In this document: in pieces, positions 1,340-20,343 of the stretch
Numbering within the stretch: position 1 is the stretch's first letter
Layout of the letters: each line of letters begins with the position of its first letter
Virus record (IMG/VR): IMGVR_UViG_3300025769_001100
Coordinates: 1-20,432 of that record
Reading direction: 5' to 3' (one strand)
Length of the DNA stretch: 20,432 nucleotides
DNA from: a virus
Program-made: the position numbers and the translations under genes
The notes under the pieces: generated by a model
The model's database searches: none
The model's input: only the letters and a program-made list of their open reading frames with translations
What the model was told of the DNA's origin: nothing

Positions 1340-2156
1340 AGAGGTCGAGGCGGGGGTTGCGCCCGCGCCAGCATCAGCGTCCGAGTCTGAAGCTGTGGGT
1401 AGTGCATCTGATGCTTCCGTAGATGACTCCCTTTCTACGGAAAGCGAGGCGCAACCTACCGCCTCCTTCGACTGGGACGGCTGGGACGGCGAAGTCGACA
1501 CTCTTCCCGAAGGCGCCCGTGAGTGGGCCGAGCCTTTCAAGACCCACTACAGCAAGGGGCTTGAGACGCAGCTCACTGAAGTCGAGGAGCTGAAGAAGCT
1601 CTACGACGGGCTCCTGGCAGGGCACACGGACCCTCGCCTCGAGCAGATGCAGACCAAGATCAAGGAGATGGAGGAACTTCACGGGAAGTCCAGCTCCGAG
1701 TGGGAAACGAAGTACGCCGAACTGGAGAAGACGTACAACGAGTACCACCAGCAGGTCGAAGCCGCGATCGACAAAGAAGCCGAAGAGTACGCCCAGTGGT
1801 TCCAACAGGAGAACACGGACCTCTTCGAGAACGAGACCCTAGCCGAAGTATTCGTCGGGCTTCTGGACGAAGGCTGGGAGATGGAGACGGCGGCCGAGGC
1901 CGCACGTCTTCCTGCGCCGCTGTTGCAGGCGGCACGGCAAGCGAAGGCGGATGGCGTCCCTGACGCATACGCGCTGCGCATTGTTGGCCAGGCGAAGAGC
2001 CCGGCTGCTCCGCGACCAGGGGCAAAGCTGACTGCGGGGGCTACGGTTCCTGCTCGTTCCCGCGAACAGGCAATGCTTCCCGAGAAGGTGCAGCCGACCT
2101 CGTTCCAGGATCTTCGCAACCAAGTCGCGCGACTAGCGCTGAAGAGGACTAGCTAA
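1332..2156 (+). CDS. Capsid scaffold-like protein
   Basis: This is a 274-residue protein directly ahead of the major capsid gene. Residues 1-45 are a disordered Ala/Ser/Glu-rich acidic segment. A Trp-Asp-Gly pair of repeats follows (about 47-53). Residues 72-160 are highly charged, with Glu/Lys/Leu spacing typical of coiled coil. The C-terminal 60 residues are Pro/Ala-rich and turn basic. This acidic start, long helix and basic end is the general layout of tailed-phage scaffolding proteins, whose basic end binds the capsid protein and which leave before DNA is packaged. No family signature is visible, so the call rests on composition and position. ATG 1332 follows GGGAGG (1321-1326) by five bases. 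The stop overlaps the capsid ATG (TAATG). Confidence 0.8.
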   Translation: MAEEVEAGVAPAPASASESEAVGSASDASVDDSLSTESEAQPTASFDWDGWDGEVDTLPEGAREWAEPFKTHYSKGLETQLTEVEELKKLYDGLLAGHTDPRLEQMQTKIKEMEELHGKSSSEWETKYAELEKTYNEYHQQVEAAIDKEAEEYAQWFQQENTDLFENETLAEVFVGLLDEGWEMETAAEAARLPAPLLQAARQAKADGVPDAYALRIVGQAKSPAAPRPGAKLTAGATVPARSREQAMLPEKVQPTSFQDLRNQVARLALKRTS

Positions 2157-3253
2157 TGGCTATTTCCCCTGACGTTCTGGCGACTGCTCTCAACGAGCTG
2201 ATGCCGGCGTACTCCGAGCTCTTCGTCAAGTGGCACCCGCTGCTCGACAACATCCTCAAGGGTGGCAACATGGACCGCGCGGCTCTCAAGGGCCCGAAGC
2301 GCGAGTTCGCCGTCGTCACCGACGGCCCTGGTACGGTCACGCATGTGCAGACCGGTACCGAGGTCATCGCTGGCGGTCGTACCCAGAACGCCCACCGAGG
2401 CAACGTGGTTGCACCGCGCCTCATCTACGCGTTCGACGTGCCTGGCAAGGACCTGGCTGAGGCCAACGGCGAGATGGACCTCGCCCGCATCCTTCAGCAC
2501 TACCCGGAGTTGGCCCTGGCCGACTTCCACGAGCGCATCGCCAAGCAGCTCGGAACCGGCAACGGCTCGGGCGTCGGCTCGTTCGTCACGATGAACGGCA
2601 ACACGTCGTTCAACCCGGACGGCACCGCGCGTGACGGCCTGTTCGAGTTCACCGCCCTCGGGTCGCAGACCAACGAGGTTCACGGTCTTCTCAGCCAGGG
2701 CGCCGCTAGCGGCATCACGGGCTGGGGCAACCAGTACGAGGACGTGTCGTCGTTCGCGACGAACGGCCGTACCCGTCTCCGCAAGGCGTACTTCGCCGCC
2801 AGCCGCCAGGGCAAGACGCTCGGCCCCGTCGACCTGATGATCGGCGACGAGCAGTCCTACCTCAACTACATCGAGGACCTCGACGATCAGGTCCGCGTGG
2901 TCAAGGTCGAGGGCGACAAGGCTCCGGGCAACGTCCGTCAGGGCATCAAGTTCCTCGACGCCGACTTCTACCTCGACGACGCCATCGACATCACCGCGTC
3001 CCAGTACACGTCGGCGGACAGGTCGACTGACGCGGGCAAGGACGGCGTCATCTACGGGTTCAAGACCCCGACGTGGTACCTGTTCACCCTCGGCCACGAC
3101 GCGAGCCGTGAGACCAAGGGCGACTTCGCCGTTCGTGGTCCGTTCCGTATTCCGGACCAGGACCTCTACCGCTACGAGATCGTCCTGATGATGGGTATGC
3201 ACACGACCCAGCGTCGGGCCAACTTCGCCGTCACCGGCTGCGCCACGCCGTAG
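2156..3253 (+). CDS. Major capsid protein (HK97-fold likely)
   Basis: This is a 365-residue protein with the size, position and organisation of an HK97-fold capsid subunit. It has a helical N-arm (1-40). Residues 42-100 are rich in Gly, Thr and Val and could form the extended E-loop. A probable spine helix at 107-133 is followed by a Gly/Ser-rich loop. Residues 220-300 are mixed alpha/beta, with the IGDEQSYLNYIED and FLDADFYLDDAIDI segments. The end is beta-rich (VIYGFKTPTWYLFTLG, then PFRIPDQDLYRYEIVLMMGM at about 331-350), as expected of the P-domain and axial domain. I recognise no proteolytic cleavage site, which fits the separate scaffold gene. It would be the most abundant virion protein. 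The exact capsid family cannot be fixed without a profile or structure search. Confidence 0.88.
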   Translation: MAISPDVLATALNELMPAYSELFVKWHPLLDNILKGGNMDRAALKGPKREFAVVTDGPGTVTHVQTGTEVIAGGRTQNAHRGNVVAPRLIYAFDVPGKDLAEANGEMDLARILQHYPELALADFHERIAKQLGTGNGSGVGSFVTMNGNTSFNPDGTARDGLFEFTALGSQTNEVHGLLSQGAASGITGWGNQYEDVSSFATNGRTRLRKAYFAASRQGKTLGPVDLMIGDEQSYLNYIEDLDDQVRVVKVEGDKAPGNVRQGIKFLDADFYLDDAIDITASQYTSADRSTDAGKDGVIYGFKTPTWYLFTLGHDASRETKGDFAVRGPFRIPDQDLYRYEIVLMMGMHTTQRRANFAVTGCATP

Positions 3254-3262
3254 GAGGCCATC

Positions 3263-3760
3263 ATGGGATTCACCGCTGCGGGCATTAGCCCCACCACCGT
3301 CACGTCCGAGTCGTCTGCTGGTGCGGATGACGCCAGCCAACTCGCACCCTTGGGCTTTGTTCTTACCGTCCCTGACGGTGACAACGGGTCTCAGGAGTGG
3401 ATCTACGTCAAGAACACTGACGCCGCTGACATGAACGTTGTCGGTACTGTCGTGGGGCGGGCCGCCGGTTCTGCTACCTACCAAGTCATCACCTGCCCTG
3501 TCAGCGAGACTACGGCGCGAGTCGTGGGCGTTGTTCAGCACACCATTGGTCGGAACGGCTTCGGCTTTGTTCTGCGCAAGGGCGTGGGCACCATTCTCTG
3601 CGATACCGGTTTCAGTGCAAACTCGGGGCTTATCGTGGGTAATGGTACGCCGGGTCGTGCAGACGCGGGTACGGCTTTGACCTCCCCGACGTTTGCTTAC
3701 TCCCTGGCCGCCATCGCTACGGGTGAGACGGGCTCTGCTTTCATCAACTGCAAGGGCTGA
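3263..3760 (+). CDS. Decoration-like capsid stabilising protein, copy 1
   Basis: This is a 165-residue, Gly/Val/Thr-rich, nearly all-beta protein right after the capsid gene. Its core matches the next gene: WIYVKN (46-51), VVGVVQHTI (87-95), GFGFVLRKGVGTI (99-111) and a closing AFINCKG. That makes the two tandem paralogs. The pattern of short strands and the place just after the capsid gene suggest a decoration protein that sits on the shell, possibly of the DUF2190 or lambda gpD-like type. This is a fold-level guess, not a motif match. It has two extra Cys (78 and 113) that copy 2 lacks. TAGGAGG at 3251-3257 is its ribosome binding site and contains the capsid stop codon. Confidence 0.75.
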   Translation: MGFTAAGISPTTVTSESSAGADDASQLAPLGFVLTVPDGDNGSQEWIYVKNTDAADMNVVGTVVGRAAGSATYQVITCPVSETTARVVGVVQHTIGRNGFGFVLRKGVGTILCDTGFSANSGLIVGNGTPGRADAGTALTSPTFAYSLAAIATGETGSAFINCKG

Positions 3761-3763
3761 TTG

Positions 3764-4237
3764 ATGGCCGTCACCTCCGCGAGTGTTTCCGTCAACGCCG
3801 AGGCCAATCTGGGTTCCACGCTCGAGGTTCAGTTCTCGGCGCGTGGTCCCCAGACCTGGGTGTACGTCCTCAATGAGGGCTCGACGAACCTCGCGGCAGG
3901 TGAGGTTGTCATCCGCAACACCACGTCGACCGAGTACAAGGTGATTGTCGCGCCTGCGGCGTCGATCACCCTTGGGCTCCGCGTGATTGGGATTGCCCAG
4001 CACGCCATTCCTGCCGGCTCCTACGGGTACGTTCTCCGTAGGGGTATCGGCACCGTCAAGATCGGCTCGGGCGCGGGTGTGTCCGATGTCGACACCTTGA
4101 CCTCGGGAGGGGCCGAGGCCGGTACCCTTCTCGTCAAGGCCAACTCGGCGGCCGGTGCCGCCGGCATGATTGCATTGGCCGTGCAGAACATCGCCGCCAG
4201 CGGTACAGGACTCGCGTTCATCGACTGTCGGGGGTAG
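3764..4237 (+). CDS. Decoration-like capsid stabilising protein, copy 2
   Basis: This is a 157-residue beta-rich protein, paralogous to the gene before it: TWVYVLN (31-37), RVIGIAQHAIP (73-83), GYVLRRGIGTV (88-98) and the end AFIDCRG all align. The N-terminal 25 residues differ from copy 1 and are shorter. ATG 3764 is preferred over the in-frame TTG at 3761 because AAGGG (3752-3756) is then seven bases upstream. Two adjacent copies suggest two distinct surface sites on the capsid, or one copy acting elsewhere, for example as a head spike or a tail part. Sequence alone cannot separate these options. Confidence 0.75.
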   Translation: MAVTSASVSVNAEANLGSTLEVQFSARGPQTWVYVLNEGSTNLAAGEVVIRNTTSTEYKVIVAPAASITLGLRVIGIAQHAIPAGSYGYVLRRGIGTVKIGSGAGVSDVDTLTSGGAEAGTLLVKANSAAGAAGMIALAVQNIAASGTGLAFIDCRG

Positions 4238-4239
4238 CC

Positions 4240-5991
4240 ATGAACTTGACCGAGATCCGGGCCGCGATGTTTGCGCAGGCGGATTGGTCACCCGAGCAGT
4301 CTGAAGAAGCCGTCGGCCGCATCAATGGCTTCATCAACCGGGCCTATAACCAGTTGGCTCTCGAAGCGCCGTTCCTGTTCTTCGAGGACAAGATGCGCGT
4401 GGCTGTGGAGCCCGACGAGAAGTCGGCATCCGACTTCGACACGCTCCAGTTGCTGGGCGACAACGACCTCGCGTCCCCCGCTGTCGACCCATGGTCGTTC
4501 GTGACGACGTACACGAAGACCGCCGCCGAGGCGGACACCGACGGGCTCTACACCACGACGTGGAAGACTGATCGCTCGTGGGACGGGCGCACTATTGAGT
4601 TCGAGACTTCTGACGGCACCAAGGTGCGCAACAGGATTCGCACCATCTGGTACGACAGCTCGGACGACAAGTACAAGCTGACGGTCGTGCATCCGTGGGA
4701 CTGGCCAAACCGGGGCGCAGGTTCATCGACGACGGGCTTCAAGTGGCGCATCTACACCGAGGAATACCCGTTTCCCGATGACATCATCAAGATGCGCTCG
4801 ATGCGGCTGTTCAACAACACGCAGCAGTACCCCATTGACGTGATGGGCCAGGACGAGGCCGAGGAGCGCACGCTCGTCGGGCCGCGAGCTCAAGTCGCCT
4901 CGGGCATTCCACGCATCGCATTCCGGCGCGAGCACTTCCAGCTCGAGGGACCAGGGACCGCTCCGTTCGTCGAGAAGGCGCCGGACACGACGCTGGTTGG
5001 TCCCAACAACTCGCCCACACCGACGTACCCGTGGAACGGTCCCGAGAAGCCCGGCGAGTTCCAGTACATCGTGACGTACACCTGGGGCAAGCGGGACGCC
5101 GACTTCCGCCTGCCAGGGCTCGCCAAGTGGGACACCTACGCAGGAGCCTGGACGAACACGGGGCAGACCATCGCACAAGCGCCGGGCAACGAGCCGGCGA
5201 ACAACCGCGTGCGAGAGCCCCGCTACGAGTCGGCTCCAAGCCCTGCATCAGGCACGCAGCCCGTTGAGTTCTTTGACGAGACCGATAAGACGAAGGGCTA
5301 CACGGCCATCAAGGTGCGGGTGCCCAACATCGAGTACGCGCTTGGCTTCCTGACCGAGCACCCCTCGGGCTCCCCCTCGGGCAAGCGCGTGTCGCAGCAC
5401 CAGAGCGGCATTCACGTTCGCATCTACCGCAAGCGCGTCTCGGTGTTCGATGACATCCCCGAAGACCCGTATCAGGACATGGCGTACGCCGCGAAGGGCA
5501 TCGTCGGTGGCAAGGCCGTCATCGACAACAAAGACAAGTTCTACCTGCTGGCCGAGCTGCGGGTCGACGAGGTCAACCGGGGCGTCTTCATCGATGACGG
5601 GCAGTACATTCCCGACCGGTCACGGCCGCTTCGTGATGTTCACGGGTACCAGCAGTACGCGCTCTACCCGCGCCCTGACCAGCGGTACGAGATGGACGTG
5701 CGCTGTGTGCGCCGGCCGCAGAAGCTCGATGCCGAGCAGGACGTGCCTCGCATCCATGCCGAGGCTGTGAACGTGCTCATCACGAGGGCGATGTCGTACC
5801 TCTACGAGAGCATGGGCAACCTACAAGCGTCTCAACTCATGCTGGGTCGCTACATGGAGTTGCTCGAGACACTGTCGAAGCGGTATGGTGACCTTCGGCC
5901 GTCCGCAGTTCCCATCCTGCGGCGGATGTCGCGGGCTCGGTTCTCGTACCGCTCACGCGACAACTACCGGAAGTGGTACAAGACACCGTAA
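4240..5991 (+). CDS. Head-tail adaptor-like protein with a large central insertion
   Basis: This is a 583-residue protein. The N-terminus (1-45) is helical, with INRAYNQLALEAPFLFF at 32-48, resembling the start of podovirus adaptor or tail tubular A-type proteins. Near the end, GYQQYALYPRPDQRYEMDV is followed by a C-terminal helical bundle (about 503-550) with the MSYLYESMGNLQASQ pattern. This is the usual closing section of adaptors that ring the portal. Between these ends lies a beta-rich section of several hundred residues, with a TWGKRDADFRLPGL segment in the middle, which makes the protein about three times the usual ~200 residues. The insertion might be a surface domain. The role in joining portal to tail is inferred from this layout and from the nozzle-like gene nearby. 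The start ATG lies three bases after the previous stop. Confidence 0.65.
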   Translation: MNLTEIRAAMFAQADWSPEQSEEAVGRINGFINRAYNQLALEAPFLFFEDKMRVAVEPDEKSASDFDTLQLLGDNDLASPAVDPWSFVTTYTKTAAEADTDGLYTTTWKTDRSWDGRTIEFETSDGTKVRNRIRTIWYDSSDDKYKLTVVHPWDWPNRGAGSSTTGFKWRIYTEEYPFPDDIIKMRSMRLFNNTQQYPIDVMGQDEAEERTLVGPRAQVASGIPRIAFRREHFQLEGPGTAPFVEKAPDTTLVGPNNSPTPTYPWNGPEKPGEFQYIVTYTWGKRDADFRLPGLAKWDTYAGAWTNTGQTIAQAPGNEPANNRVREPRYESAPSPASGTQPVEFFDETDKTKGYTAIKVRVPNIEYALGFLTEHPSGSPSGKRVSQHQSGIHVRIYRKRVSVFDDIPEDPYQDMAYAAKGIVGGKAVIDNKDKFYLLAELRVDEVNRGVFIDDGQYIPDRSRPLRDVHGYQQYALYPRPDQRYEMDVRCVRRPQKLDAEQDVPRIHAEAVNVLITRAMSYLYESMGNLQASQLMLGRYMELLETLSKRYGDLRPSAVPILRRMSRARFSYRSRDNYRKWYKTP

Positions 5992-6001
5992 GGGAGAACC
6001 C

Positions 6002-6247
6002 ATGCCTAGCGACCGACCCCCTATGATCTGCGGCGGCATCTACGAGTACATCGACTACCGCAAGGTGAAGGTCGAGGCGACGCTGGTGAGCAAGGAAACG
6101 CTCCCCGACGGCACCCAGCAGGGCACTCTCCTTCGGCACGGGCACGCGCCCGAGCTCGTCTCATACGAGAGCGACAGGTGGCAGAAGCTCACGTTGTCGG
6201 GGCGCCCTGCCTCTCCACGCGTGGGACGGCCGCGTAAGGAGGGCTAG
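6002..6247 (+). CDS. Small protein of unknown function with a basic AT-hook-like tail
   Basis: This is an 81-residue protein. ATG 6002 is chosen because AGGGAGA (5991-5997) precedes it by four bases. The frame stays open upstream into the previous gene, but that extension has no ribosome binding site. The first 60 residues look like short beta strands (YEYIDYRKVKVEATLV, then TLLRHGHAPELVSY). The tail has a GRPRK motif (core Gly-Arg-Pro) at about 75-79, the minimal element of AT-hooks, which could touch DNA or be chance. It sits between the adaptor-like and nozzle-like genes, so a neck or tail assembly role is possible. I recognise no family. Confidence 0.72.
   Translation: MPSDRPPMICGGIYEYIDYRKVKVEATLVSKETLPDGTQQGTLLRHGHAPELVSYESDRWQKLTLSGRPASPRVGRPRKEG
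6237..6242 (+). promoter_or_regulatory. Strong Shine-Dalgarno deciding a GTG start
   Basis: AGGAGG lies four bases ahead of GTG 6247, whose G is also the last base of the previous gene's TAG stop. The next in-frame Met codon is about 35 codons later and would remove conserved-looking sequence, so GTG is the likely start. Confidence 0.75.
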
Positions 6248-8568
6248 TGGGCAACCCCACGAACGCAGCGAACGTCGGGCCGCTCATCCTTCGTGTCCAG
6301 GCTGACGGCCTGTTCAACGCGAACGACGTGGCCCAGCGCATCGTCAACATGCGCTACAGCGAAGAGCAGACGCTGCACTCCATCGTGGGGCCCACAGCCT
6401 ACGTGCCAGACAAGGTGACAGGTCTGCGCCCGTCGTCGCGTGGGCAGCCTGTCGACGCACCCGTCTTCCTTCCAGGGAATGAACTCGACGCGACCGAGCC
6501 GCACTACGGCTTCCGACAGCACGGGCTCTTCCACACCGTGATGCCCTCGGGGAAGGAGCTGCTGCTCCTCCACACGGGCAACGAGATGTGGGAGTGGCGA
6601 GGCTGGCAGCGCAACTGGCGGAAGTTGATCAGCCCGACAGCCGGGGCGCACGGCATCGTTGGTGACCTGCCCGACAAGCCCCAGTCAGACTTTCCGACGC
6701 AGTTCGTCTACACGGGCAATGGCGTCGTCATTATCCCCCAGCAGGGCCAAGCGTACTTCTACGACGGTGCCTACATCGCCCCGCTGGGCTTTTCCCAGAC
6801 GCCCTCGAGCCCGACAGCCCGAGGCCCTGACAGCTCTTCGGAAGAGTTCAGAGCGCAGAAGAAGAGCATCAACGACACGGGCTACGCGCATACCAGCTCG
6901 TACAACGGGGCGACGTTGGTCAACGTCACAACAGTGCAGGGAACAGCCGACGAGCTCGTCGCGACAGCCATGACGGAGGGCTTCGGCCCGTGCCGCCTCG
7001 GTACAATTCAGGTCATTCCCGTCACAAACCCTGAAGAGCTGGAGAACGTGGCTACGGGCTGGATGCGGGCGGGGGAGTGGCGCTGCGCTGTGCAGTACGT
7101 CGACCGCTGGGGCAACCTGTCACCCGCGTCGGCCCCGAGTAGCTCGGTGACGGTGGACGTGTGCCCAGCTGTGCTGCCTCAAGTGGAGTACGCGGAGCAG
7201 ATTGTACCGGAGATCACTTCGACCAACCTGCTCCCGAGCACAGTGCGCGTGCAGATCAAGTGGGAAGGCATCTCGGTCGGCCCTGAACATTGCATAGGAC
7301 GCATCCTGTACCGGACGAAGGACACACAGAACACGGGGGACAACACCCTGTATTACCTGTCGCAGAACGCGCTGTCGGTGCCCGAGTACGCCACCATCCC
7401 CGACAACGTCGTCACGGACTTTCCCGACAACATCCCTGATACCTGGCTGGGTGACCCCCTAGAGCAGTACCTCGCGGTGCCCGAGTTCCGACTGGCCACG
7501 ATGGCTCTCGGGCGACTGTGGATTGGGAACTTCGTTGGGGGGCCTTCGACCGTGCGCCCCAGCGAGCCGGGCTTCTGGGGCACGTTCAAGGCAGGCAATG
7601 ACCTGACGCCTGACCCGACCTCTGAAGTCACGGGCATGGTGGGCGTCAACGAGGGGCTGCTGGTCTGTACGGCGGCTTCCTCGTTCCTCGTGACCTCCTC
7701 GGACGACGGGCAGGGCTTCAAGTACGCACCGCTCTCGAAGACGGTCGGGTGTGCTGCCCCGAGCAGCATGGTGACGCTGCCCAACGGGCCGACCATCTTC
7801 CTCGGTCGCGACGGCTTCTACTTGTACGAGGGAGGCCAACTCCAGTTCGTGTCGCCCGAGCTGCGTCGTACGCTCAAGCGGCTCACGTACGCACGCCTCA
7901 AGCAGGCCGTGGCCGCGTACGACCCTCGGAGCCGCGAGTACCGCTGCTGGGTGAGCCTCGACGGCTCCGAGCGCAACAACCGGTGCTTCGTGTACGGGCC
8001 GAGCCCGGACGGCTCTCGGGGTTGGAGAGAGCGCGACGACATGCTGGTCGACGCTGTCTGCACGACGACGGATCACCGCCGGTACATGCTCGTCGGGGGC
8101 AACCTCAACGACGACAACAGGCACAGCGGCGTGTACCTGCTCGACCACGACGCGAGCCCTGACGTGCCTGCCCTAGTCGAGGACCGCGAAGCCATCATCG
8201 AGACGGGCTGGCTCGAGGCGTCCGACTCCGACAAGGCGAAGACCTCCTACGTCGTGTACCTGTGGCTCCGCGAGACGGAGAACACGAAGGTCACTGTCGA
8301 CATCCTGCGCAACTGGCGCGAGAAGGTCATCGACACGGCGACCGTGTTCCGGTACTCGAAGAAGGACATCCCTGACTTCTGGGCTACGACCAAGCTCGGC
8401 GCGGGCACCTGGCGAGACAAGCGCCCGTACTGGACACGCGCTGCCATCCATGTGCCCTCGGCCGAGTCCGTGAAGTTCCGCATCCGAGGCACGGGCACTT
8501 GGGAGTTCGTCGGGCTCCAAGTCAAGATGTCTCCGCGTTACTACGGTGGCGCCCAGCTTTCGCCGTAG
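6247..8568 (+). CDS. Tail nozzle / stabilisation-like protein
   Basis: This is a 773-residue, mostly beta protein with GTG start. The stretch FRLATMALGRLWIGNF (from 414) and, further on, FLGRDGFYLYEGG (from 518) followed by a spaced PxSREYRCWV segment are the kind of repeated blade motifs seen in podovirus nozzle or stabilisation proteins (P22 gp10 type, T7 gp12 type). There, beta-propeller domains from several subunits form the tube below the adaptor. The final 150 residues are a separate beta domain ending in MSPRYYGGAQLSP. The neighbours fit: adaptor-like before, tail-associated beta-rich proteins after. It would form the distal DNA channel of a short tail. Assignment to one named family needs a profile search. 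Confidence 0.68.
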   Translation: MGNPTNAANVGPLILRVQADGLFNANDVAQRIVNMRYSEEQTLHSIVGPTAYVPDKVTGLRPSSRGQPVDAPVFLPGNELDATEPHYGFRQHGLFHTVMPSGKELLLLHTGNEMWEWRGWQRNWRKLISPTAGAHGIVGDLPDKPQSDFPTQFVYTGNGVVIIPQQGQAYFYDGAYIAPLGFSQTPSSPTARGPDSSSEEFRAQKKSINDTGYAHTSSYNGATLVNVTTVQGTADELVATAMTEGFGPCRLGTIQVIPVTNPEELENVATGWMRAGEWRCAVQYVDRWGNLSPASAPSSSVTVDVCPAVLPQVEYAEQIVPEITSTNLLPSTVRVQIKWEGISVGPEHCIGRILYRTKDTQNTGDNTLYYLSQNALSVPEYATIPDNVVTDFPDNIPDTWLGDPLEQYLAVPEFRLATMALGRLWIGNFVGGPSTVRPSEPGFWGTFKAGNDLTPDPTSEVTGMVGVNEGLLVCTAASSFLVTSSDDGQGFKYAPLSKTVGCAAPSSMVTLPNGPTIFLGRDGFYLYEGGQLQFVSPELRRTLKRLTYARLKQAVAAYDPRSREYRCWVSLDGSERNNRCFVYGPSPDGSRGWRERDDMLVDAVCTTTDHRRYMLVGGNLNDDNRHSGVYLLDHDASPDVPALVEDREAIIETGWLEASDSDKAKTSYVVYLWLRETENTKVTVDILRNWREKVIDTATVFRYSKKDIPDFWATTKLGAGTWRDKRPYWTRAAIHVPSAESVKFRIRGTGTWEFVGLQVKMSPRYYGGAQLSP

Positions 8569-11178: not shown

Positions 11179-11745
11179 ATGGACATGAAACAACGGCTTC
11201 GTGAGCAGGGCAAGCAAGAAGGCTTTGCTACGCTGCGGGGCTACAGCAAGTTCGCCCCCCTCGACGCGGCGTTGCAGGACCTTGAGACCACCAAGAAGAT
11301 GGCGGACCCAAGGTTCCTGGCGAAGACCGAGCAACTCATTCAGAGCCAGGCAGACCCCCAGAAGGGGGACACGCAGACCATCAACGTGCGAAGCGGGCTG
11401 ACAGGCTCGGCGGGTCAGACAGCTGAAGCTGCCCGAGCCGCAGGGGCTGGGGCAGCGTCGAAGACGGCAGAAGCGATGGCCCGCATCAAGCAGCGGGCGC
11501 GTCAGCAGTACCGTCAGGACCTGGGCATTGCCCAGCAAGCCCAGCGTGCCGCGCAGGACCGCTTCGCAGGCGCTCTGACGACGGCTAGTCAGCCGACCTT
11601 CGCCGAGGACCTGGCTCAAAAGGCTCTTCGGGGAGCAGTTGGGGGCGGTATCGGGGCACTAACAACGACTGCCACAGGCAATATCGCGCAGGCTGCGGGC
11701 CTTAGCCCCGAGATGCTCCAAGCCGCGCAAGGGAGACCAGTCTGA
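11179..11745 (+). CDS. Ala/Gln-rich helical protein, likely internal virion protein
   Basis: This is a 188-residue protein rich in Ala, Gln, Arg and Lys, with Leu spaced for helices. The middle (about 75-130) is an Ala/Arg/Gln helix. The C-terminal GAVGGGIGALTTTATGNIAQ is Gly-rich and mildly hydrophobic, a pattern that could insert in or pass a membrane. AGGGGG (11168-11173) precedes ATG 11179; a second in-frame ATG at 11185 is a less likely start. It is the first of three helical genes that end the structural block. In short-tailed phages such genes usually encode the inner core proteins released into the cell at infection, and the smallest is often the first. No catalytic motif is visible. 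Confidence 0.62.
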   Translation: MDMKQRLREQGKQEGFATLRGYSKFAPLDAALQDLETTKKMADPRFLAKTEQLIQSQADPQKGDTQTINVRSGLTGSAGQTAEAARAAGAGAASKTAEAMARIKQRARQQYRQDLGIAQQAQRAAQDRFAGALTTASQPTFAEDLAQKALRGAVGGGIGALTTTATGNIAQAAGLSPEMLQAAQGRPV

Positions 11746-13196
11746 TGGCTGAAGCAGGCTTTGAGCAGAAGCTCCAGGCTCTCGTTCGGGCCCGCAGGCG
11801 CGAGCCGGGGCGCATCCTGGGCGAGATCGGCAAGGGCATGCTGCGCGGCGCGGCAGGGCTCCAGTACATCCCGAAGGCGGTCGACCAGACAAACCAGATG
11901 GCGGCCCTCACCAAACAGTACGAGACCTTGGGTGAGCTGGAGGCAGCGGCCGGCGGTGACCCTGTCAAGATGGCCGAGGCGAAGCTCGACTTCCTCGTCA
12001 AGTTTGTGGGCGAAGCACGTCAGCGTCTCAACAAGAAGGCGGACGTGTACAGCCAGGCCCAGTTCAACAGAGCCAAGCTGCTCCTCGACAACCTCGACAA
12101 GCAGGTCGACAACCAGCGGCAGTTGATCACGACGCTGGAACCTGCGCGACGTGGCGGCGGCGCAGGTGCAGGGGCAGTCGACCAGTCGAAGGTGGCTCGC
12201 GTCTTCCGCGCCATCGAGGCGAGGATGGCGGAGAAGGAAGGCGGTGACGTAGGACAGCTGCCGGTTATCGGCTCCCTCATCACCAACGCACGGATGACAC
12301 CTGCCGAGCAAGAAGTCCTGTTCGATCGCCTGGAGGACGATGCTGCGTACATGCAGATGCGGTCTGAAGTGCCGGGCGCCCCGGCGGCTGTGTCTTCGGC
12401 GTACAATAAGCTCCAGACCCTCGGGACCACGATGGGAGGAGATGGTGTCAAGGGAGTCACCGAGGCTCTGCGCGGTCAGTTGAGCAAGGATGCTGCGCTT
12501 GCCCAGGAGGCAGCGGCCTCGGACGACCCCCAGGGCTACCTTGACAGTCTGCCAGGCGAGCTCCGCAACCGCGTCAAGGAGATGCACTTCGTGCTCGACG
12601 AGCGCGGCGAGCCCGTGCCTGACCCCGTGACGCAGCGCCCGATGCTGAAGAAAAGCGCAGAAGTGGCTGCCGAAGCACGACTGACCTCGCAGGGGCTAGA
12701 GCGTAGCTACGACGACATGGCCGCCACCATCAATCAGCTCGTCACGGGCTCGGGTGGGGGCAAGTTTGCGAACGAGATGAAGGACATCCTGTCGGCCTAC
12801 GGGGCAGGGTCTGTCGATGAGCTCTTCGCACGCTATGGGCTCGACACCGCCTCGATGCAGGCCCGAGAAGATGCCCTGCGGGGCAAGTACGGCGGTGAGC
12901 GGGCAGACATTGCCGCACAGTTGCAGAAGCTCGCTGTGGCCCCCAAGGCGCCTGTCGCACGCGCCGCCTTCGAGGTGATGCAGGACCCGAGCTTCTCAGC
13001 CGAGATGAAGAAGCGCGGCTACGAAGACCCTGTGTCAGGGCTCCGCGCAATGGCCAGGGAAGAAGGGGAGGAGATGCGCGCCGAGCGGAAGGAAACGCGG
13101 CAACAGGCTCGTGCTAGGTTAGCTCGTCCCCGAGTAGTAGCCGCGATGCGGGAGAAGCTCTATGCCCCAACAGGACCTCAGCCCGTCGACACCTGA
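11745..13196 (+). CDS. Long helical protein, likely internal virion protein
   Basis: This is a 483-residue, highly charged and mostly helical protein rich in Ala, Arg, Glu and Leu. Residues 60-135 look coiled-coil. A Gly/Ala-rich break lies at about 138-145, and the C-terminal third ends in a dense Glu/Arg helix and a Pro-rich tail. I see no lysozyme, transglycosylase or protease motif. The ATG overlaps the previous stop (TGATG), and its 3' end overlaps the giant gene by 35 bases in a different frame, so the three genes are probably translated together. Position and composition suggest a core protein packaged in the head, but no family is recognised. Confidence 0.65.
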   Translation: MAEAGFEQKLQALVRARRREPGRILGEIGKGMLRGAAGLQYIPKAVDQTNQMAALTKQYETLGELEAAAGGDPVKMAEAKLDFLVKFVGEARQRLNKKADVYSQAQFNRAKLLLDNLDKQVDNQRQLITTLEPARRGGGAGAGAVDQSKVARVFRAIEARMAEKEGGDVGQLPVIGSLITNARMTPAEQEVLFDRLEDDAAYMQMRSEVPGAPAAVSSAYNKLQTLGTTMGGDGVKGVTEALRGQLSKDAALAQEAAASDDPQGYLDSLPGELRNRVKEMHFVLDERGEPVPDPVTQRPMLKKSAEVAAEARLTSQGLERSYDDMAATINQLVTGSGGGKFANEMKDILSAYGAGSVDELFARYGLDTASMQAREDALRGKYGGERADIAAQLQKLAVAPKAPVARAAFEVMQDPSFSAEMKKRGYEDPVSGLRAMAREEGEEMRAERKETRQQARARLARPRVVAAMREKLYAPTGPQPVDT

Positions 13197-16100
13197 GTCC
13201 CCGCCGGTTCCAGAGAAGCCTCTCACCATCGAAGAGCGCCTAGAGCAGGTGCGCTCCATGTCTCCGGGCATGGAGCGTGCAGCCGCTTTCGGTGAGGTGT
13301 TCAGGCAGATCGACACGAAAGAAGCGGAGCGCGAGAAGAAGCGGCGCAAGGCTGCTGACGAGCGCCTTGAGAAGCTCCGCACTGCCCAACAGCAAGGGGC
13401 AAAGCGCGAGCAGCTTCGAGCGGCGGCACCTGACCGCGAGACGGCCCTCATCGTCGACACGAAGAGGAGAGGTCAGACCCTGATGCAGAGCGACTTCGGG
13501 ACGTACCTGAAGCGCGTAGCAGACAAGCGGGGCATCGACTTCGACGACATGCCCCAGCGAACGAAGCTGCTAGACGACCTCATCCAGTCGGCGACGCGGC
13601 CCGTCGACAAGGGCTACGACGCGTCCTTGCCCCTCTACGACAAGGACAAGGAGGGCTTCGATTCGGATGCCCTCGAGGCCGTCAACATCTGGTCGATGGC
13701 GACTCTCGGGCAGCAGTACACGAACCCCGATGAGCTACGGAAGAACCTGCCCGAGGACTACCAAGAGCTGCTCCGACAGCAGGCCAACCTCCAACTGCTC
13801 TACAATCAGGAGATTGCCGAGAAGGGTGGGGAGCGCATCAACGGGCTTCTCGACGGTAAGACCTTCTCGGTCGACCGCACGAAGAACGACAGCCTCAACG
13901 CGCAGATGGCACGTCAACAGACGCATGGTCCCGAGCACACGCTGTTGCTGGCCGACCTCGATGAAGACACGAAGAAGGCGCTGCGTGAGGCAACAGCGAC
14001 CGAGCCCACGAAGCAGATGATGGACGAGGCGGGCATCCGTCCCGAGGCCCAGGAGCGGGTCATCGCGCTTAGTCAGATGCGCGACCCGGCACGTCCGCAG
14101 GACATCCAGATGGCCCTGATGCAGTCAGCAGACGGGCAGGTGGCTGTTGACCTTCGCGGCATGTACGACGCGCTCTATGCATCGAGGTTCGCGGCGACAC
14201 GGACGCAGTTGCCCGAGATGTCTGTCGAGGATGCGCGCGAGCGAGCTCGCGACGAGGCCAATCGCTACATCCAGAAGATGGTCAACCTGCGGGCCCCGAC
14301 GTACCACCCCGACCCGGAGGGGCTGTTCGCGGCGTACACGCGCGGTGAGGGCGCCCTCGGCAACCTTGCGGACGGGTTCCAGGTTCTCGCCAGCATGGCT
14401 ACGTTAGGTATGGATGAGTTCGCGGGAGACTTCCTCGACAAGGCAATCAAAGCCGGCCTGGCACCAATCCTGCCTCCCGTCAGAGTTGCCGGCACGCTGA
14501 AGCGTGCCACTGGGGACAAAGTCAGGGCGGGCGAGTTCGGGTTCGTCAGTCGCTACTTGTCGGACAACACGACGACACGAGGCATCGATCAGTTCCTGCG
14601 CGTCAGCCTCCTGTCGGAAGGCTTGTCCTCCGCGTATGCGATGGCCCTCGAAGATGTCATCGAAGAGAAGGGCAAGTTCGACGGCGAGATCATGGACATT
14701 GCGGAGCGCGTAGCCGAGATCTACGGCACGGACGAGCACCTCTTCCGCATCGCATCTCGCGACGATGACCTCGGCACCATGATGTTCACGCTGGGGCGGG
14801 CAGCAGACCCGACAGTTGCCATGGGGCTTCGCGAGGCGCCCGCACCCGACAGCGTGTTCAACATCTCGACCGTCACTGGCGCAGCTGCCATGATCTTCGG
14901 GATGATGTTTGAACCAGACGCGCTGACGCTGCTCGGCCCCATGGGGCATCTCGCGAGCAAGGGGAAGAAGCTGACGGCCGCTCTCGCAGGGTTCGACGCT
15001 GCCAGGATGAATGCTCGCGCTGCTTCGAGGCTTCAGTACAAGGACCTCACGGGCATCGACGCGTCGCGGAAGCTAGAGGAAGACCTCAACAACGGCGTGA
15101 TCACAGAGGAGAAGGCCGCCGAAGAGTTCAGCGACATGCTGTATCAGGACCCTACGGGGCGGCTTGCGGCGACAGGGCGCAAGGCGGAGATGGCGAACCT
15201 CAAGTCCGCAGGGGTCGAAGCGGCTGGCCCTGGGCAGGTGCCTTCCATCTCAAAGGACGTATTGAACGTGACGCGTGAGGCCGAGCGGGCCTACAGCAAA
15301 TCGTACGCAGACGCGAGCAAGCGGGCAAGCGACACCGAAGAGGCCCTCGAGAACGCTCCTCCGGTAGCCCTGGAGGTCGCGCAGGACATTCGTAAGCGCA
15401 TCGAGGTCCGGGCCGAGAGGACGGAAGCCGAGACTTCTGCGGCACAGGCGAAGATTCACGAGAGTCAGCTGCGAAGTCGGCTGGCTGTACTCGAAGATGC
15501 GCGGCAGCGCGGTCGTCTTACAGTCGACGACACAGTTCGCCAAGGGCTGGCGGATCAGCTTGAGAACATCGACTTGATGGATGATGCCGCGCGCATCAAC
15601 TTCCTTCAGCAGAACGCCGTCAAGAAGATCATCCGCGCTTCGGGAGGCGACCCTGTCGAGATGCTGGCCAGAGCCCAGGCGCTTCAGCGTACAGGCGAAG
15701 GCCGGGGCATCATGCGAGAGAAGAACCTCGCGGCGTTCGCAGAGAAGCTCCGCACCTCGTTGCTCGCCACGCTGGCGCGGCCTTTCGACGATGTGCTCGA
15801 CGAGACTATTGCCACGACCAAGGCTCAGCATCAGAAGGCGCTGGATCAGGTCCGCAAGGACGAAGTTCGTGCGCAGGCGGCGGAGCGTGTCGAAGAGACA
15901 CTACGGCAGTCCATCGAGACCAAGCTCACGAACTTCGGGGCGACGATAGCCCCAGGGTCCGAGGTAGGCGACATGCTGCGCCGTCTGACGGACGAGACCC
16001 AGATCTACATCAGGCATTCGCAAGATCTGCTCAAGGCCCGTGCTGACATGGCCGAGATGGCTGTGAAGATGCAGGAGCCTGCGTCGCAACGACGGGCGTA

Positions 16101-19100
16101 CATGCTGGGCGTGCTCAAGAACTTCAACGAGATCTTGGAGCTGGAAGCAAAGCTGGGCGAAGTCGGGGCAAAGGCGCGTGTCGAGTTCGACGCGTTGCTC
16201 AAGCGAGCCCGTAAGACTGCGGGTGAAGAGGGCGGCATCACGCCCGACATGATCAGGGAAGCCGATGAGGTGCTGCGCAAGGGCAAGTCGATGGAGCAGC
16301 TGCTCACCGACATGCGCAACACGATGAGCCCAGAGGAGTACGCGGCAGCCATCGAAGACTTGCTCCGCAATCAGATCGCCGTACGGCAGTTCTACCGACG
16401 CCCTGGGGCAGTCGGCGACCTCGTACGAAGTCAGCCCTCCATTCGAGGCGTACGCGACTTCGTCGACACCTACATGATGAAAGCCGCTCGGTTCTACGCC
16501 AAGTACGAAGGAGAGCTTCAAGACTTCATTGACACGTACCTAACGGTCGAGCGCGGCGTTCTCGACATCGACGCGAACGAGGGGCTGACGCGGGCTTCGA
16601 CATCGGCCCGCATCTACGCCAGAACCATCGGCGGGGAGATGAACGAGTACATCATCTACTCGGAGAAGATAGGCGACGAGCTTCCCGAGAACATGGCGAA
16701 CTTGAGCTCGAAGGAGAAGGCACAGGTCAACTACGACCGCGCCCAACGCCTGTCCCTTGACTACCTCGACGGTCGCGGCGTCATCGACGTGAAGACGACC
16801 TTGGGGCAGGAGATGACGTTGTCAGGGCGTACGGGCGACACGAGCCCCCTTGACCACGCCATCGACTACCTAGTGGGGGCTGCCCGGCTGATGACGGGCG
16901 CCGAAGGCTACGTTGACGAGGCGCTGGCCGCGATTGTGCGTAGCTTCGCTGCTGACCGCATCAGTATCGACGAGCTGGCGCAAGCCGAGAAACTTGCGAC
17001 ACAGGCCGTCGCCAGCTTCCTTATCTCGCAATCGAAGGCGGGCGTGCCGTCTCGACGGATTGCAGAACAGCTCCCTGACGTGATTCGCAAGGCCTGGAAC
17101 ACAGGGCCAGGCAAGTTCGGGTCGCCCGTCTCGAAGCAGCTGGCCGACTACCGGCTGTTCTCTAAGATCCTTGTCATCGCGGCTGCCGAAGGCCGCATGC
17201 TGAAGAAGGTTGTCGCGATAGCCGGGGAAGGCCGCCATCTGTTCTCTCCTTCCCTCGCGCGCAGTGTCAACAGCTTCCTGGCAGAAGGCCTGGCTGTGCG
17301 CGCTGACTTCACGACCAAGCCTGTTGTCGGGGACCTCGTCATCACGACGAAGGCAGCTCGTCAGTTCAACGAGGCTCTCAACAAGGGTCGCATCGTCCCA
17401 GCGCCTCCCAACGTCAAGGTCGAGGGCTACACGGTCAAGGGAGAAGCCTCGCGGGCTACCCCTGCGGGCTTCCCGGCTGACCCGCGCGTGCGGAGTGTGT
17501 CGCAGTCTGAACTGGACCAGGCGGCGGACATCCGCACGAAGCGAACCATCGGCGACGGCATCAAGCGTGACCTCTACGCCGAGCGCAACATCCGTGGCGA
17601 CATGGGCGTCACTGCCTACCGTGTCGACGAGATCTTCACGCAGAAGAGGGGAAGCAGGAAAGTCGAGTTCGCCAAGCTGACGGACCTCGAGGGCAACTAC
17701 AAGATGACGGTGCCCTTGGCCGAGGTGACGCTGCGCGACCCCCTTGTGGGCAGCTTCCAAGACGCCATCGACGGCATCCTGTCTCTGGGGCTCTCGTTCA
17801 CATCAGGCCGCCAGAAGAACGTCGCGACAGCGGCTGCCGGGCAAATCAAGCGGCAGTACAGCAAGCTCGTGGCGCGGTCTATCGACGCAGACGGGAACAT
17901 CCTGTACGTGCCGCGCGACTTGTCGAAGGACTTGTACGACGCACTCGACGGGCTGAAGAAGGACTTGACCGACGCCCCGGTCAAGACGCGCATCGGTCAG
18001 AAGATGCTCGGGCTAGTCGACACGATGATCAGCTGGCACAAGAAGGCCATTCTCTTCGGGCTTCTGCTCCCACGAGCTGCGTTCGCCACCAACGCTGTCT
18101 ACGGCGATACCACGCAGATGATCATTGACCTCAACGAGGTGCCCCTGTCCTCTGTGCTGCGCGTTAGCACCTTCGGGGCCCTTGGGTACATACCAGTCTT
18201 GGGCAAGGCCATGCAGCGCTCTCTGGGCGTCGTAGGGGGCACGGGGCGACGGGTACTGCCGGCTCCGACGAGAGCCTTCAGTGATCCGGCTACACGGGCT
18301 GTGCTCGAGGGCTCTGACCAGCTGATTGAGATACGTCGAGGCGACCGCGTCATCAAAGAGAAGGCCTCATCCATCTTGGAGAAGGCTCTCGACCAGGGCG
18401 CGGGCGACAACATCCTGACCTCGGACGCGATGCTCGCGCTGCGGAAGGTAAAGAAGGACCCCGCGTTCGGGGGCCGTCTACGTGACTACGGCAGGCTGAT
18501 GGAGATTCAGATGCGCGAGGCCACCAAGGCTCAGCGCGTCGGACTCTTCCTACAGTTGTACGCCGAGCAAGGGATGACGGCCCAGCAAGCAGGCCTGCGC
18601 ATGCGGCAGGCGCTGTTCAACTGGGACGATGCCATCGGGGCCAGTGAAGCCATATTCCTCGGGCGCAACTTCCTGTTCTACACGTTCATCAAGAACGCCT
18701 TTGCCCAGGCGCACCGCACCCTGTTCGAGGGCTACACCGACAACCTCGACGAGTACCTGAAGAAGTTCGTTCGGGGTCGCACTAAGCTCCAACGGCTTGA
18801 GCTCGTGTCGCGGTTCTCGAAGGACTTCTTCGAGAAGGCTGTGTTCGGCGACCCGATGGCCGAGATTGAGACACCGGAAGAGGCCCAGCGGCGCGCGTAC
18901 ACGACGTTCATGCCCGACTACTTGATCGAGCAGACGCTGATGATGACGATGCCCCTGGGCAGGGACCAGGCGCGCGTCGTCAAGGCCATCTACGGACGAG
19001 ACATCGACTCGGTGGCCGGCGTTCTGCCCAAGGCCACGCACATCGAGTTCCTCAACAACTACCTCGACCTCGTGAACCTCTCGATGATCCCTCTGGCAGT

Positions 19101-19830
19101 CACGGCTCTCAACGCCATGGGGCTCACGGAGAGGGAGGTGAACTACGACTCCGTCATGCAGGGGCTTCTGCGGCACGCTGTCGACGTGGCCAACCCGTTC
19201 TCGTCCGAAGTCATCAAGGCCTTCGCGGGCATGGTAGGCATCGAGGACCCCCAGGCAGGCTACGGGGGGACCGCCGGCAGGAAGGTGCGTCAGTACGAAG
19301 CCGTCATGCTGACTCACTTCGGACTCGGAGATGCGCTTCATCCCCACCCCAAGAACGGAGAGCTGTACATCCTGCCGGACGCCACCTCGAGCACCCCCGC
19401 CAAGATTGCCGGCAACCCTGTATCCATCGGGCTCATGCGGACGTTCGTGCTGCCCGAGTACACGCGCTCTCGCCTGCTCGACGAGATCAACGGCGGCTAC
19501 GTCGTTGGCGAGGGCTCCCTGCTCCTTCTCCAAGCCCTGTCGCAGGGCATCCCAGGCGTCAATCCGTTCGATGACATCGACGCAGCGCGCGTCAGAGCGG
19601 GCCCGCTGTCCATCGAGTACACCGAAGCCCAGAAGGGCTGGCTGGCCGCCCGCGTCGTGGCGTTCTCCGAGTATCTCGGAGCTTACAAGCACGCTTTCTT
19701 CTCGGGGCGCATGGCTCAACGCTACGACATCACCGACAAGAAGCAGTTCGCATCAACAATCGTCAGCCAGGCGGAGCACCGGGGCAAGCCTCGGCAGCCG
19801 ATTCCGTCTAAGCTACCGAAGGACGAGTAG
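13162..19830 (+). CDS. Giant 2222-residue helical protein, likely ejected internal virion protein
   Basis: This is the largest gene in the window. GGGAGAAG (13150-13157) lies ahead of ATG 13162, and the start overlaps the previous gene by 35 bases. The protein opens with a Pro-rich tail, then charged helices. Hydrophobic or amphipathic stretches occur near 398-445 and 574-600. A long coiled-coil-like region spans about 700-1000. A beta-rich patch lies near 1500-1560, a hydrophobic stretch near 1630-1680 (AILFGLLLPRAAF, then TNAVYGD), and LFNWDDAIGASEAIFLGRNF begins at 1818. The last pattern, with the preceding Trp-His-Lys-Lys segment, resembles a recurring section of very large phage and mobile-element proteins (polyvalent-protein type), from memory. 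I found no vRNAP, transglycosylase or HExxH motif by eye. Likely packaged and ejected with the DNA. Confidence 0.68.
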   Translation: MPQQDLSPSTPESPPVPEKPLTIEERLEQVRSMSPGMERAAAFGEVFRQIDTKEAEREKKRRKAADERLEKLRTAQQQGAKREQLRAAAPDRETALIVDTKRRGQTLMQSDFGTYLKRVADKRGIDFDDMPQRTKLLDDLIQSATRPVDKGYDASLPLYDKDKEGFDSDALEAVNIWSMATLGQQYTNPDELRKNLPEDYQELLRQQANLQLLYNQEIAEKGGERINGLLDGKTFSVDRTKNDSLNAQMARQQTHGPEHTLLLADLDEDTKKALREATATEPTKQMMDEAGIRPEAQERVIALSQMRDPARPQDIQMALMQSADGQVAVDLRGMYDALYASRFAATRTQLPEMSVEDARERARDEANRYIQKMVNLRAPTYHPDPEGLFAAYTRGEGALGNLADGFQVLASMATLGMDEFAGDFLDKAIKAGLAPILPPVRVAGTLKRATGDKVRAGEFGFVSRYLSDNTTTRGIDQFLRVSLLSEGLSSAYAMALEDVIEEKGKFDGEIMDIAERVAEIYGTDEHLFRIASRDDDLGTMMFTLGRAADPTVAMGLREAPAPDSVFNISTVTGAAAMIFGMMFEPDALTLLGPMGHLASKGKKLTAALAGFDAARMNARAASRLQYKDLTGIDASRKLEEDLNNGVITEEKAAEEFSDMLYQDPTGRLAATGRKAEMANLKSAGVEAAGPGQVPSISKDVLNVTREAERAYSKSYADASKRASDTEEALENAPPVALEVAQDIRKRIEVRAERTEAETSAAQAKIHESQLRSRLAVLEDARQRGRLTVDDTVRQGLADQLENIDLMDDAARINFLQQNAVKKIIRASGGDPVEMLARAQALQRTGEGRGIMREKNLAAFAEKLRTSLLATLARPFDDVLDETIATTKAQHQKALDQVRKDEVRAQAAERVEETLRQSIETKLTNFGATIAPGSEVGDMLRRLTDETQIYIRHSQDLLKARADMAEMAVKMQEPASQRRAYMLGVLKNFNEILELEAKLGEVGAKARVEFDALLKRARKTAGEEGGITPDMIREADEVLRKGKSMEQLLTDMRNTMSPEEYAAAIEDLLRNQIAVRQFYRRPGAVGDLVRSQPSIRGVRDFVDTYMMKAARFYAKYEGELQDFIDTYLTVERGVLDIDANEGLTRASTSARIYARTIGGEMNEYIIYSEKIGDELPENMANLSSKEKAQVNYDRAQRLSLDYLDGRGVIDVKTTLGQEMTLSGRTGDTSPLDHAIDYLVGAARLMTGAEGYVDEALAAIVRSFAADRISIDELAQAEKLATQAVASFLISQSKAGVPSRRIAEQLPDVIRKAWNTGPGKFGSPVSKQLADYRLFSKILVIAAAEGRMLKKVVAIAGEGRHLFSPSLARSVNSFLAEGLAVRADFTTKPVVGDLVITTKAARQFNEALNKGRIVPAPPNVKVEGYTVKGEASRATPAGFPADPRVRSVSQSELDQAADIRTKRTIGDGIKRDLYAERNIRGDMGVTAYRVDEIFTQKRGSRKVEFAKLTDLEGNYKMTVPLAEVTLRDPLVGSFQDAIDGILSLGLSFTSGRQKNVATAAAGQIKRQYSKLVARSIDADGNILYVPRDLSKDLYDALDGLKKDLTDAPVKTRIGQKMLGLVDTMISWHKKAILFGLLLPRAAFATNAVYGDTTQMIIDLNEVPLSSVLRVSTFGALGYIPVLGKAMQRSLGVVGGTGRRVLPAPTRAFSDPATRAVLEGSDQLIEIRRGDRVIKEKASSILEKALDQGAGDNILTSDAMLALRKVKKDPAFGGRLRDYGRLMEIQMREATKAQRVGLFLQLYAEQGMTAQQAGLRMRQALFNWDDAIGASEAIFLGRNFLFYTFIKNAFAQAHRTLFEGYTDNLDEYLKKFVRGRTKLQRLELVSRFSKDFFEKAVFGDPMAEIETPEEAQRRAYTTFMPDYLIEQTLMMTMPLGRDQARVVKAIYGRDIDSVAGVLPKATHIEFLNNYLDLVNLSMIPLAVTALNAMGLTEREVNYDSVMQGLLRHAVDVANPFSSEVIKAFAGMVGIEDPQAGYGGTAGRKVRQYEAVMLTHFGLGDALHPHPKNGELYILPDATSSTPAKIAGNPVSIGLMRTFVLPEYTRSRLLDEINGGYVVGEGSLLLLQALSQGIPGVNPFDDIDAARVRAGPLSIEYTEAQKGWLAARVVAFSEYLGAYKHAFFSGRMAQRYDITDKKQFASTIVSQAEHRGKPRQPIPSKLPKDE

Positions 19831-19914: not shown

Positions 19915-20343
19915 ATGGGCAACCTTAAGCAGCGCCTGATCAAGCCGGGCACCGACTTCAACTACGCCGAGGGCGTCAAGGTCAAGAACGCGAGCACTTC
20001 TGTGGCTATCGCGGCTGACACTGTCGTCTTCGTCAATGGCTACGAGGGCCCGTTCCTCAAGGTCACCAAGGCACTCGGCACGGACAAGGCGGCACGCGGC
20101 CGTCTGTTCATCGCCAAGCACGAGATTCCGGCTGACGGGTTCGGCGTGGTCCTGCCCTGGAAGCTCGTCACGAACTCCGTCAACTTCTCGACCGGGGTTG
20201 TCGGCGACCGTGTGTTCATCGCAACCGACGGAACCCCTACGCTCACGGCGACGACGAAGTCACGTACCATCGGGCACGTCGTCGACGCCGCCAACCCTGG
20301 CGTGTACCTGTTCACGGGTGAGATCGTCGACCAGACGGCCTAG
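19915..20343 (+). CDS. Decoration-like beta protein, third distant copy
   Basis: This is a 142-residue, Gly/Val/Thr-rich all-beta protein. Its core KHEIPADGFGVVL (68-80) aligns with QHAIPAGSYGYVL of the decoration-like protein at 3764, and the strands before it (VKVKNASTSVAIAADTVVFV) and after it (GDRVFIATDG, then TIGHVV) keep the same spacing. Overall identity is low, so this is a distant relation or a shared fold. The second half recalls DUF2190-type capsid proteins. TAGGAG lies six bases upstream of ATG. It sits far from the capsid gene, behind the giant gene and after the only long gap, so it may be expressed separately. Confidence 0.7.
   Translation: MGNLKQRLIKPGTDFNYAEGVKVKNASTSVAIAADTVVFVNGYEGPFLKVTKALGTDKAARGRLFIAKHEIPADGFGVVLPWKLVTNSVNFSTGVVGDRVFIATDGTPTLTATTKSRTIGHVVDAANPGVYLFTGEIVDQTA

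Follow-up and report, generated by a model that had tools for sequence, protein, structure and literature searches.

A 2222-residue protein of an uncultured short-tailed phage, most likely a structural inner-membrane ejection protein

The giant gene and its place among the late genes

We analysed a 20,432-base stretch of DNA (hereafter, the window), which is IMG/VR record IMGVR_UViG_3300025769_001100 from an uncultured phage; the record is classed as linear, a class that often corresponds to a fragment. Its largest open reading frame (ORF), at positions 13162-19830 of the plus strand, starts with ATG and runs for 2222 codons without an internal stop. We refer to its product, P0001, as the giant, and to loci and records of related phages by L and G numbers, respectively. 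The ORF accounts for 32.6% of the bases of the window and for about 33.5% of the residues (2222/6639) encoded by its 17 accepted genes, and its first 35 bases overlap the 3' end of the gene before it. A full-length homologue, L099, is 52% identical over 2179 aligned codons; differences between the two are most frequent at third codon positions, and non-synonymous divergence is low relative to synonymous divergence (dN 0.44, dS 1.19, NG86), showing that the giant is a real protein-coding gene under purifying selection. All together, the evidence favours an inner-membrane ejection protein of structural kind, in which no cargo enzyme can be detected, as the most likely identity of the giant.

We describe the genes upstream of the giant gene in sequence, all coordinates being on the plus strand. 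A scaffold-like protein (1332-2156), recognized by its composition and its place just before the capsid gene, has weak matches only (best, phrog_7970, E=0.03). It is followed by the major capsid protein (2156-3253; phrog_9953, E=5.2e-4), two decoration-like proteins, a head-tail adaptor with a C-terminal part resembling the SU10 adaptor (4240-5991; PF24175, E=0.0016, below the cut-off; tail family phrog_10775, E=3.1e-5) and a nozzle or tail-tube-B-like protein, so assigned by place, size and a match to a virion structural protein (6247-8568; phrog_3287, E=1.6e-7). Three unmatched tail-region genes come next, and then three ORFs of 188, 483 and 2222 residues. The 188-residue protein (11179-11745) stands in the place of T7 gp14 and N4 gp52 and would be the small ejection protein, whereas the 483-residue protein (11745-13196) stands in that of T7 gp15 and N4 gp51, the periplasmic tunnel. 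The giant gene thus lies 3' of the genes in the gp14 and gp15 places and after the head-tail genes. A comparable arrangement was found in the relatives described below: an ORF of at least 200 residues ends within 160 nucleotides of the giant gene at 31 of 33 loci. At six loci or more (L106-L110 and L117), two ORFs of about 240-290 residues replace the middle cassette gene.

The arrangement is that of known ejection cassettes. In T7, the gp8 connector, the gp9 scaffold and the gp10 capsid protein are followed by gp11, gp12 and gp13 and then by gp14 (196 residues), gp15 (747) and gp16 (1318), a small-middle-giant order that the window mirrors. Like gp16, the giant is the last and largest protein of its cassette; it is 1.7 times as long, and no sequence match between the two was found. 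The N4 trio of gp52 (150), gp51 (644) and gp50 (3500) and the JC1 trio of gp67 (196), gp68 (510) and gp69 (4515) occupy matching places; JC1 gp67 and gp68 are virion proteins. The gp73-72-71 proteins of DEV are reported to be the functional equivalents of gp14-15-16 (PMC10925440), and N4 gp51 and gp52 to be homologous to their DEV counterparts (PMC12633501). A hypothetical protein of Escherichia phage PTXU04, gp25, is also similar in length (2197 residues) and in its late-gene place.

Relatives of the giant and a conserved C-terminal core

Sequence libraries did not name the giant. Pfam gave no family at E<=1, and PHROGs gave two families of unknown function only (E 0.12 and 0.52). Searching 50,697 phage records by tblastn with P0001, its homologues L109 and L116 and the capsid protein of the window produced no match, and peptide scans with P0001 picked out 2 stretches in viral contigs and 23 in genome contigs, none of which was a relative. 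We therefore took the capsid protein as a handle for related phages. It matched viral contigs at 64 loci (59-100% identity), with the gene order of the window. When the whole records behind 41 capsid loci were searched with P0001, 20 of 41 contained a match (E<=0.01); a profile of the C-terminal region of the family (A3) found a giant gene in 19 of 27 records, 18 of them new and 9 already covered by the first search. Both searches combined place a counterpart in 36 of 59 distinct records, those without one including many short contigs. Two records missed by the P0001 search, G010 and G025, have a long alignable ORF at the same place (L117 and L118); these ORFs are among the rows of A3, which is thus not independent of the two records.

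Thirty-five ORFs were fetched. L100 and L112 were left out as apparent duplicates of L101 and L109 (equal length, start and end), and the remaining 33 together with the window form a set of 34 members. Although truncated at contig ends, L104 and L155 were kept in the hydrophobicity, cysteine and polar-residue counts; the alignment of the N-terminal half was made without L104 and L156. Complete members range from 1757 to 3534 residues. The longest, L156 (record G059), contains a DUF7178 segment (1673-1847) and, ahead of the C-terminal region, about 1500 additional residues. The phages that carry the family appear far from the cultured phages searched, because the portal of one relative had no match in the phage collection and its terminase stayed under 60% identity to each of the 464 records that it matched, the lowest E value among the matches listed being 1e-17 at 26% identity (Roseobacter phage CRP-7). 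In the searches made here, we could find the giant family in environmental sequences only.

Conservation within the family peaks at about residues 1600-1850. The most conserved windows define a C-terminal core at residues ~1600-1878 (17959-18795, plus strand), with the motifs P..A/Y..N..GD..Q and RQR..LY...G...A...ALYDW...FY...KN. Across the 34 members, 25 columns are at least 85% identical, and 14 of these are glycine or proline. At the same level the family consensus has eight polar residues, seven of which (K1600, D1649, Q1791, R1792, D1820, E1829 and R1878) fall within 1600-1878. Such a pattern is more readily understood if the core serves structure or packaging than if a catalytic domain had been added, and the unknown activity that the initial annotation had suggested is not supported, although an added catalytic domain is still conceivable.

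The eighth polar residue, D586, belongs to a second conserved element, a hydrophobic segment with an EPD motif at residues ~564-592 (14851-14937, plus strand), which is a candidate membrane-inserting helix; D586 is present in 29 of 34 members. At least three hydrophobic stretches had been noticed in the giant. Indeed, P0001 has six windows, two of them overlapping, above a Kyte-Doolittle (KD) mean of 1.2, but only region 545-600 is regularly hydrophobic throughout the family (KD19 of at least 1.2 in 31/34 members and of at least 1.6 in 12/34). Elsewhere, KD values of at least 1.2 were reached at 1955-1995 in 18 members, at 1618-1690 in nine and at 1325-1365 in four.

Two AlphaFold2 models of middling confidence, both mainly helical, cover the protein: residues 1-1085 (32 sequences; mean pLDDT, the per-residue confidence, 69.8; pTM, the predicted template-modelling score, 0.44) and 1060-2222 (34 sequences; 66.6 and 0.67). 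They bear out the early description of the giant as mostly helical and coiled-coil. A long helical or coiled-coil region is predicted at residues ~690-1020 (15229-16221, plus strand), with helical and coiled-coil matches in the PDB (best Z 11.5 over 108 residues). A small beta-barrel of SH3/KOW/tudor-like type is predicted from strands at ~1486-1524 (17617-17733, plus strand; VIA Z up to 6.2 over 51 residues, a weak match); the segment is gapped in L113, L114, L116 and L118 and so is absent from part of the family. When the models were compared with the PDB by VIA, the matches that stood out were this barrel (Z ~6) and helical or coiled-coil structures. In Foldseek searches of viral models, the N-terminal half strongly matched A0A516MA22 (E 3.1e-20), otherwise tape measures and coiled coils. 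A0A516MA22 also heads the list for the C-terminal half and is likely a homologue.

These matches raise the question of whether the giant remains in the particle, as a protein like a tail tape measure or in some other structural role. Besides the helical N-terminal half, this explanation can draw on the Foldseek tape-measure matches (E ~6e-4 to 1e-3 and weaker, TM-score ~0.08) and on one of 19 members that matches a tape-measure PHROG at 5.5e-4. We consider it very unlikely: the matches are coiled-coil-type ones, the window has short-tail adaptor and nozzle genes with no tail-tube or sheath match among the genes scanned, and ejected giants are probable relatives of the core.

This last point comes from profile comparisons. 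The initial annotation had likened the section from residue 1818, which the core takes in, to very large polyvalent proteins. Using hhalign, family residues 1100-2222 aligned with the C-termini of six LPD38 proteins with a score of 39.4 (P 0.0019; 14.8 when reversed). The aligned stretch pairs P0001 1626-1840 with JC1 gp69 ~3956-4149, directly N-terminal of LPD38 itself (4196-4401), in a block that lies outside the Pfam definition of that domain. With 17 LPD38-type proteins (six with an LPD38 profile match and 11 tblastn relatives of the MinM2 C-terminus, taken in full or as C-terminal parts), the alignment scored higher still, at 45.8 (P 4e-4); none of 40 column shuffles exceeded 17.7, and the reversed control gave 17.1. 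Family residues 1-560 and 560-1100 gave no signal against the LPD38-type C-termini (scores ~15). The C-termini of N4-like virion RNA polymerases (vRNAPs) scored 28.9 against the family (19.3 reversed) and 45.0 against the LPD38-type proteins (26.8 reversed), the latter at a place consistent with the family-N4 alignment. By HMMER, the family profile matched a vRNAP piece at 5e-4 (best control 0.09) and the LPD38-type profile matched the family at 0.04 (control 0.61). Foldseek gave 23 matches at E<=1e-3 between the C-terminal half and viral models: eight large-polyvalent-domain proteins, one LT_GEWL-domain protein, one N4-like vRNAP piece and 13 without a name. The core (~1600-1880) is thus probably related to the pre-LPD38 block of giant polyvalent phage proteins, and possibly to the C-terminus of the N4 vRNAP. 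The likeness to polyvalent proteins survives as a distant homology of a block that begins at about residue 1626.

Searches for an enzyme

That no enzyme domain was visible in the giant had been judged by eye, and wider searches agree. Pfam was scanned with all 34 members and PHROGs with 19 of them. No Pfam enzyme family was common to the members, each match occurring in a single one: DUF7178 in L156 was the strongest (E 1.2e-8), followed by a leucine-zipper family (3.6e-4), a T7 capsid-assembly family (0.0054) and eight more families at 0.035-0.099, including Thiolase_C and a SPOUT methylase. PHROGs gave seven families in one member each, the best being tape measure (5.5e-4, as above) and anti-repressor (9e-4). 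The family profile matched 31 PDB sequences at E 0.025-1, mostly coiled coils and helical bundles, some of the matched entries being fusions or enzymes (an aldolase fusion, an M23-family EnvC-type protein, tRNA ligases); neither a polymerase nor a lytic transglycosylase was found at E<=1. The SLT domain was found in none of 33 records including the window, whereas 8 of 14 control genomes matched. No enzyme fold stood out in the VIA comparison with the PDB, although, given the size and middling confidence of the models, such a fold could still be present.

T7 gp16, largely helical like the giant, has an N-terminal transglycosylase (PMC8954989), and none was detected in the giant; among the gp16-like proteins compared in the same source (609-1337 residues), the transglycosylase is described as not conserved in P22 and Sf6. 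N4 gp50, the vRNAP, has a polymerase domain that we did not detect in the giant, the weak similarity being confined to the C-terminal regions. JC1 gp69, a giant DarB-like protein of Bcep22 type that was found in virions by mass spectrometry (PMC9144972), carries the related block near its C-terminus and, in addition, SLT, LPD3 and LPD38 above the cut-off as well as sub-threshold methylase-like and helicase-like segments, none of which is detectable in the giant. PTXU04 gp25 has a clear LPD38 (E 1.3e-41), and P0001 had no tblastn match in the collection that contains PTXU04. Several enzymatic or effector domains in one chain, as in LPD38 polyvalent proteins, were found by Pfam neither in P0001 nor in any of the 34 members.

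The giant might nevertheless be an ejected polyvalent protein whose catalytic cargo, perhaps serving counter-defence, is genuine but escaped recognition, lying in the N-terminal 560 residues or in the middle. JC1 gp69 shows that a related C-terminus can be joined to SLT, methylase-like and helicase-like parts, and a MinM2 protein is annotated as RelA/SpoT. Moreover, residues ~90-370 of the giant are confidently predicted (pLDDT mostly above 80) with no named confident structural match, the length of complete members varies twofold with DUF7178 in one of them, and lineage-specific cargo would escape an analysis of family-wide conservation. Against this, almost no polar residue is conserved outside the core (D586 at 85%, with R480 and K603 added at 70%), and the Pfam scans revealed no enzyme shared by the members. 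All in all, we regard hidden cargo as unlikely, if the least unlikely of the alternatives.

A strongly diverged N4-like vRNAP would account for the weak C-terminal similarity (the hhalign score above; Foldseek E 6e-4 and weaker), the same cassette place and the lack of cysteine, and P0001 contains the pattern [DT]xxGR three times. However, the similarity is limited to a part outside the polymerase domain, no RNA polymerase was among the PDB matches of the family profile, and the R...K...YG motif is not in P0001, which makes this explanation extremely improbable. A search with PF00940 proved uninformative as a polymerase test, since the controls did not match either.

Some further genes of the window and its relatives deserve mention. 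The adjacent decoration-like proteins (3263-3760 and 3761-4237) look like paralogues, queries with them matching the same places in several relatives, and a small protein after the giant (19915-20343) resembles both by eye. The adaptor-like protein has 583 residues, compared with 196 for T7 gp11, and carries a large extra region, since its SU10-adaptor match is confined to residues 469-548. Beside the head genes, 106-342 is a small HNH-endonuclease-like gene (phrog_4590, function unknown, E 2.6e-18; endonuclease VII-like phrog_1035, E 7.3e-9). In a relative, L157:6774-7319 encodes a CxxCSSF-like motif and looks by eye like an NlpC/P60-type peptidase, possibly an endolysin.

Cysteine content and a possible route into the cell

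Neither the giant nor its 188- and 483-residue partners contain a single cysteine, whereas the remaining 15 window genes counted have 24 in 4339 residues. The family as a whole has 5 cysteines in 74,406 residues, with 29 of 34 members free of them, and the middle neighbour of the giant is cysteine-free at 25 of 31 loci (13 in 15,239 residues). Known ejection proteins follow the same rule: cysteine counts are 1, 0 and 0 for T7 gp14, gp15 and gp16, and zero throughout for P22 gp7, gp20 and gp16, N4 gp50, gp51 and gp52 and JC1 gp67, gp68 and gp69, compared with 18/2869 (cysteines/residues), 25/3147, 9/2753 and 8/1489 for the other virion proteins counted in T7, P22, N4 and JC1, respectively. PTXU04 gp25 is cysteine-free, as are the N4 vRNAP with nine C-terminal parts of its tblastn relatives and 16 of the 17 proteins with LPD38-type C-termini. 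The exception is a 3002-residue protein of the archaeal Methanosarcina virus MetMV (L163), which has a clear LPD38 domain and three cysteines. At the capsid-relative loci, where complete reading frames only were counted, cysteine-free proteins make up 0/49 nozzles, 9/59 adaptors and 11/80 capsid proteins. Cysteine-free N4-like vRNAPs have already been published with an explanation by unfolded passage (PMC3715699, PMC3915230, PMC4837373 and PMC2784036). In a partial literature, no wider statement on cysteine in ejection proteins was recognised by title or abstract, and no mention of cysteine was found in PMC8954989, PMC12633501 and PMC10925440.

The cysteine signature fits the passage of an unfolded chain out of the head. 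Together with the place in the cassette and the probable kinship of the core to giants including JC1 gp69, it lends good, if indirect, support to the early view that the giant is likely ejected; packaging and ejection are what we infer from these three lines. We thus think it quite probable that, among the ejection (pilot) proteins of a podovirus, the giant is the third and the largest, with a role like that of T7 gp16 and of the non-catalytic parts of the N4 vRNAP.

Several observations weigh against this interpretation. Neither Pfam nor PHROGs matched the 188- and 483-residue partners, whose roles are assigned from synteny, place and size, and no murein hydrolase was found in the cassette. 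The LPD38 profile (PF18857) matched none of 35 family records at E<=10, although it exceeded the cut-off in 6 of 8 reference phages. The probability that hhalign itself assigns to the pre-LPD38 match is 34%, the TM-scores of the C-terminal Foldseek matches are low (0.14-0.43), and a vRNAP profile matched the family at 8e-4 with a shuffled control at 0.0063; the HMMER comparisons being borderline, the kinship rests on hhalign with its shuffles. Finally, lack of cysteine is shared by scaffold-like proteins (83/85) and by the short acidic g956 proteins (31/37) of the capsid-relative loci, so that a helical or acidic composition may be part of its cause, or it may be a mark of any protein that exits the head. 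Its use as proof of ejection is weakened to that extent, and the signature is not exclusive to ejection. The scaffolds of T7 and P22 are cysteine-free as well.

If the giant is indeed the third ejection protein, it would be packaged in the head together with its two partners. On infection, the small protein would form an outer-membrane pore and the middle one a periplasmic tunnel, and the giant would travel unfolded through portal and tail, which would explain the near-total lack of cysteine. It may then refold in the envelope and insert into the inner membrane via the segment at ~564-592, perhaps also via 1967-1989, with the C-terminal core at the cytoplasmic side, where it could gate or anchor the incoming DNA. 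More tentatively, and with rather less confidence than we have in ejection itself, the core may be an ancient head-packaging and ejection module common to this family, LPD38-type proteins and N4-like vRNAPs, lying beyond the reach of profile hidden Markov models; cargo would differ by phage, and the present family would be a nearly cargo-free, cysteine-free chassis.

Candidate ejected proteins could be picked out cheaply by a near-total lack of cysteine, provided one bears in mind that scaffold-like proteins share it. Of the components by which short-tailed phages cross the cell envelope, third ejection proteins are the least understood, and their giant cargo-bearing forms, such as the N4 vRNAP and the DarB-like proteins, look unrelated by ordinary sequence search. 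A member of 2222 residues in which no enzyme is detectable, from a family that recurs across dozens of phage records of environmental origin, may show in isolation what every one of these proteins requires.

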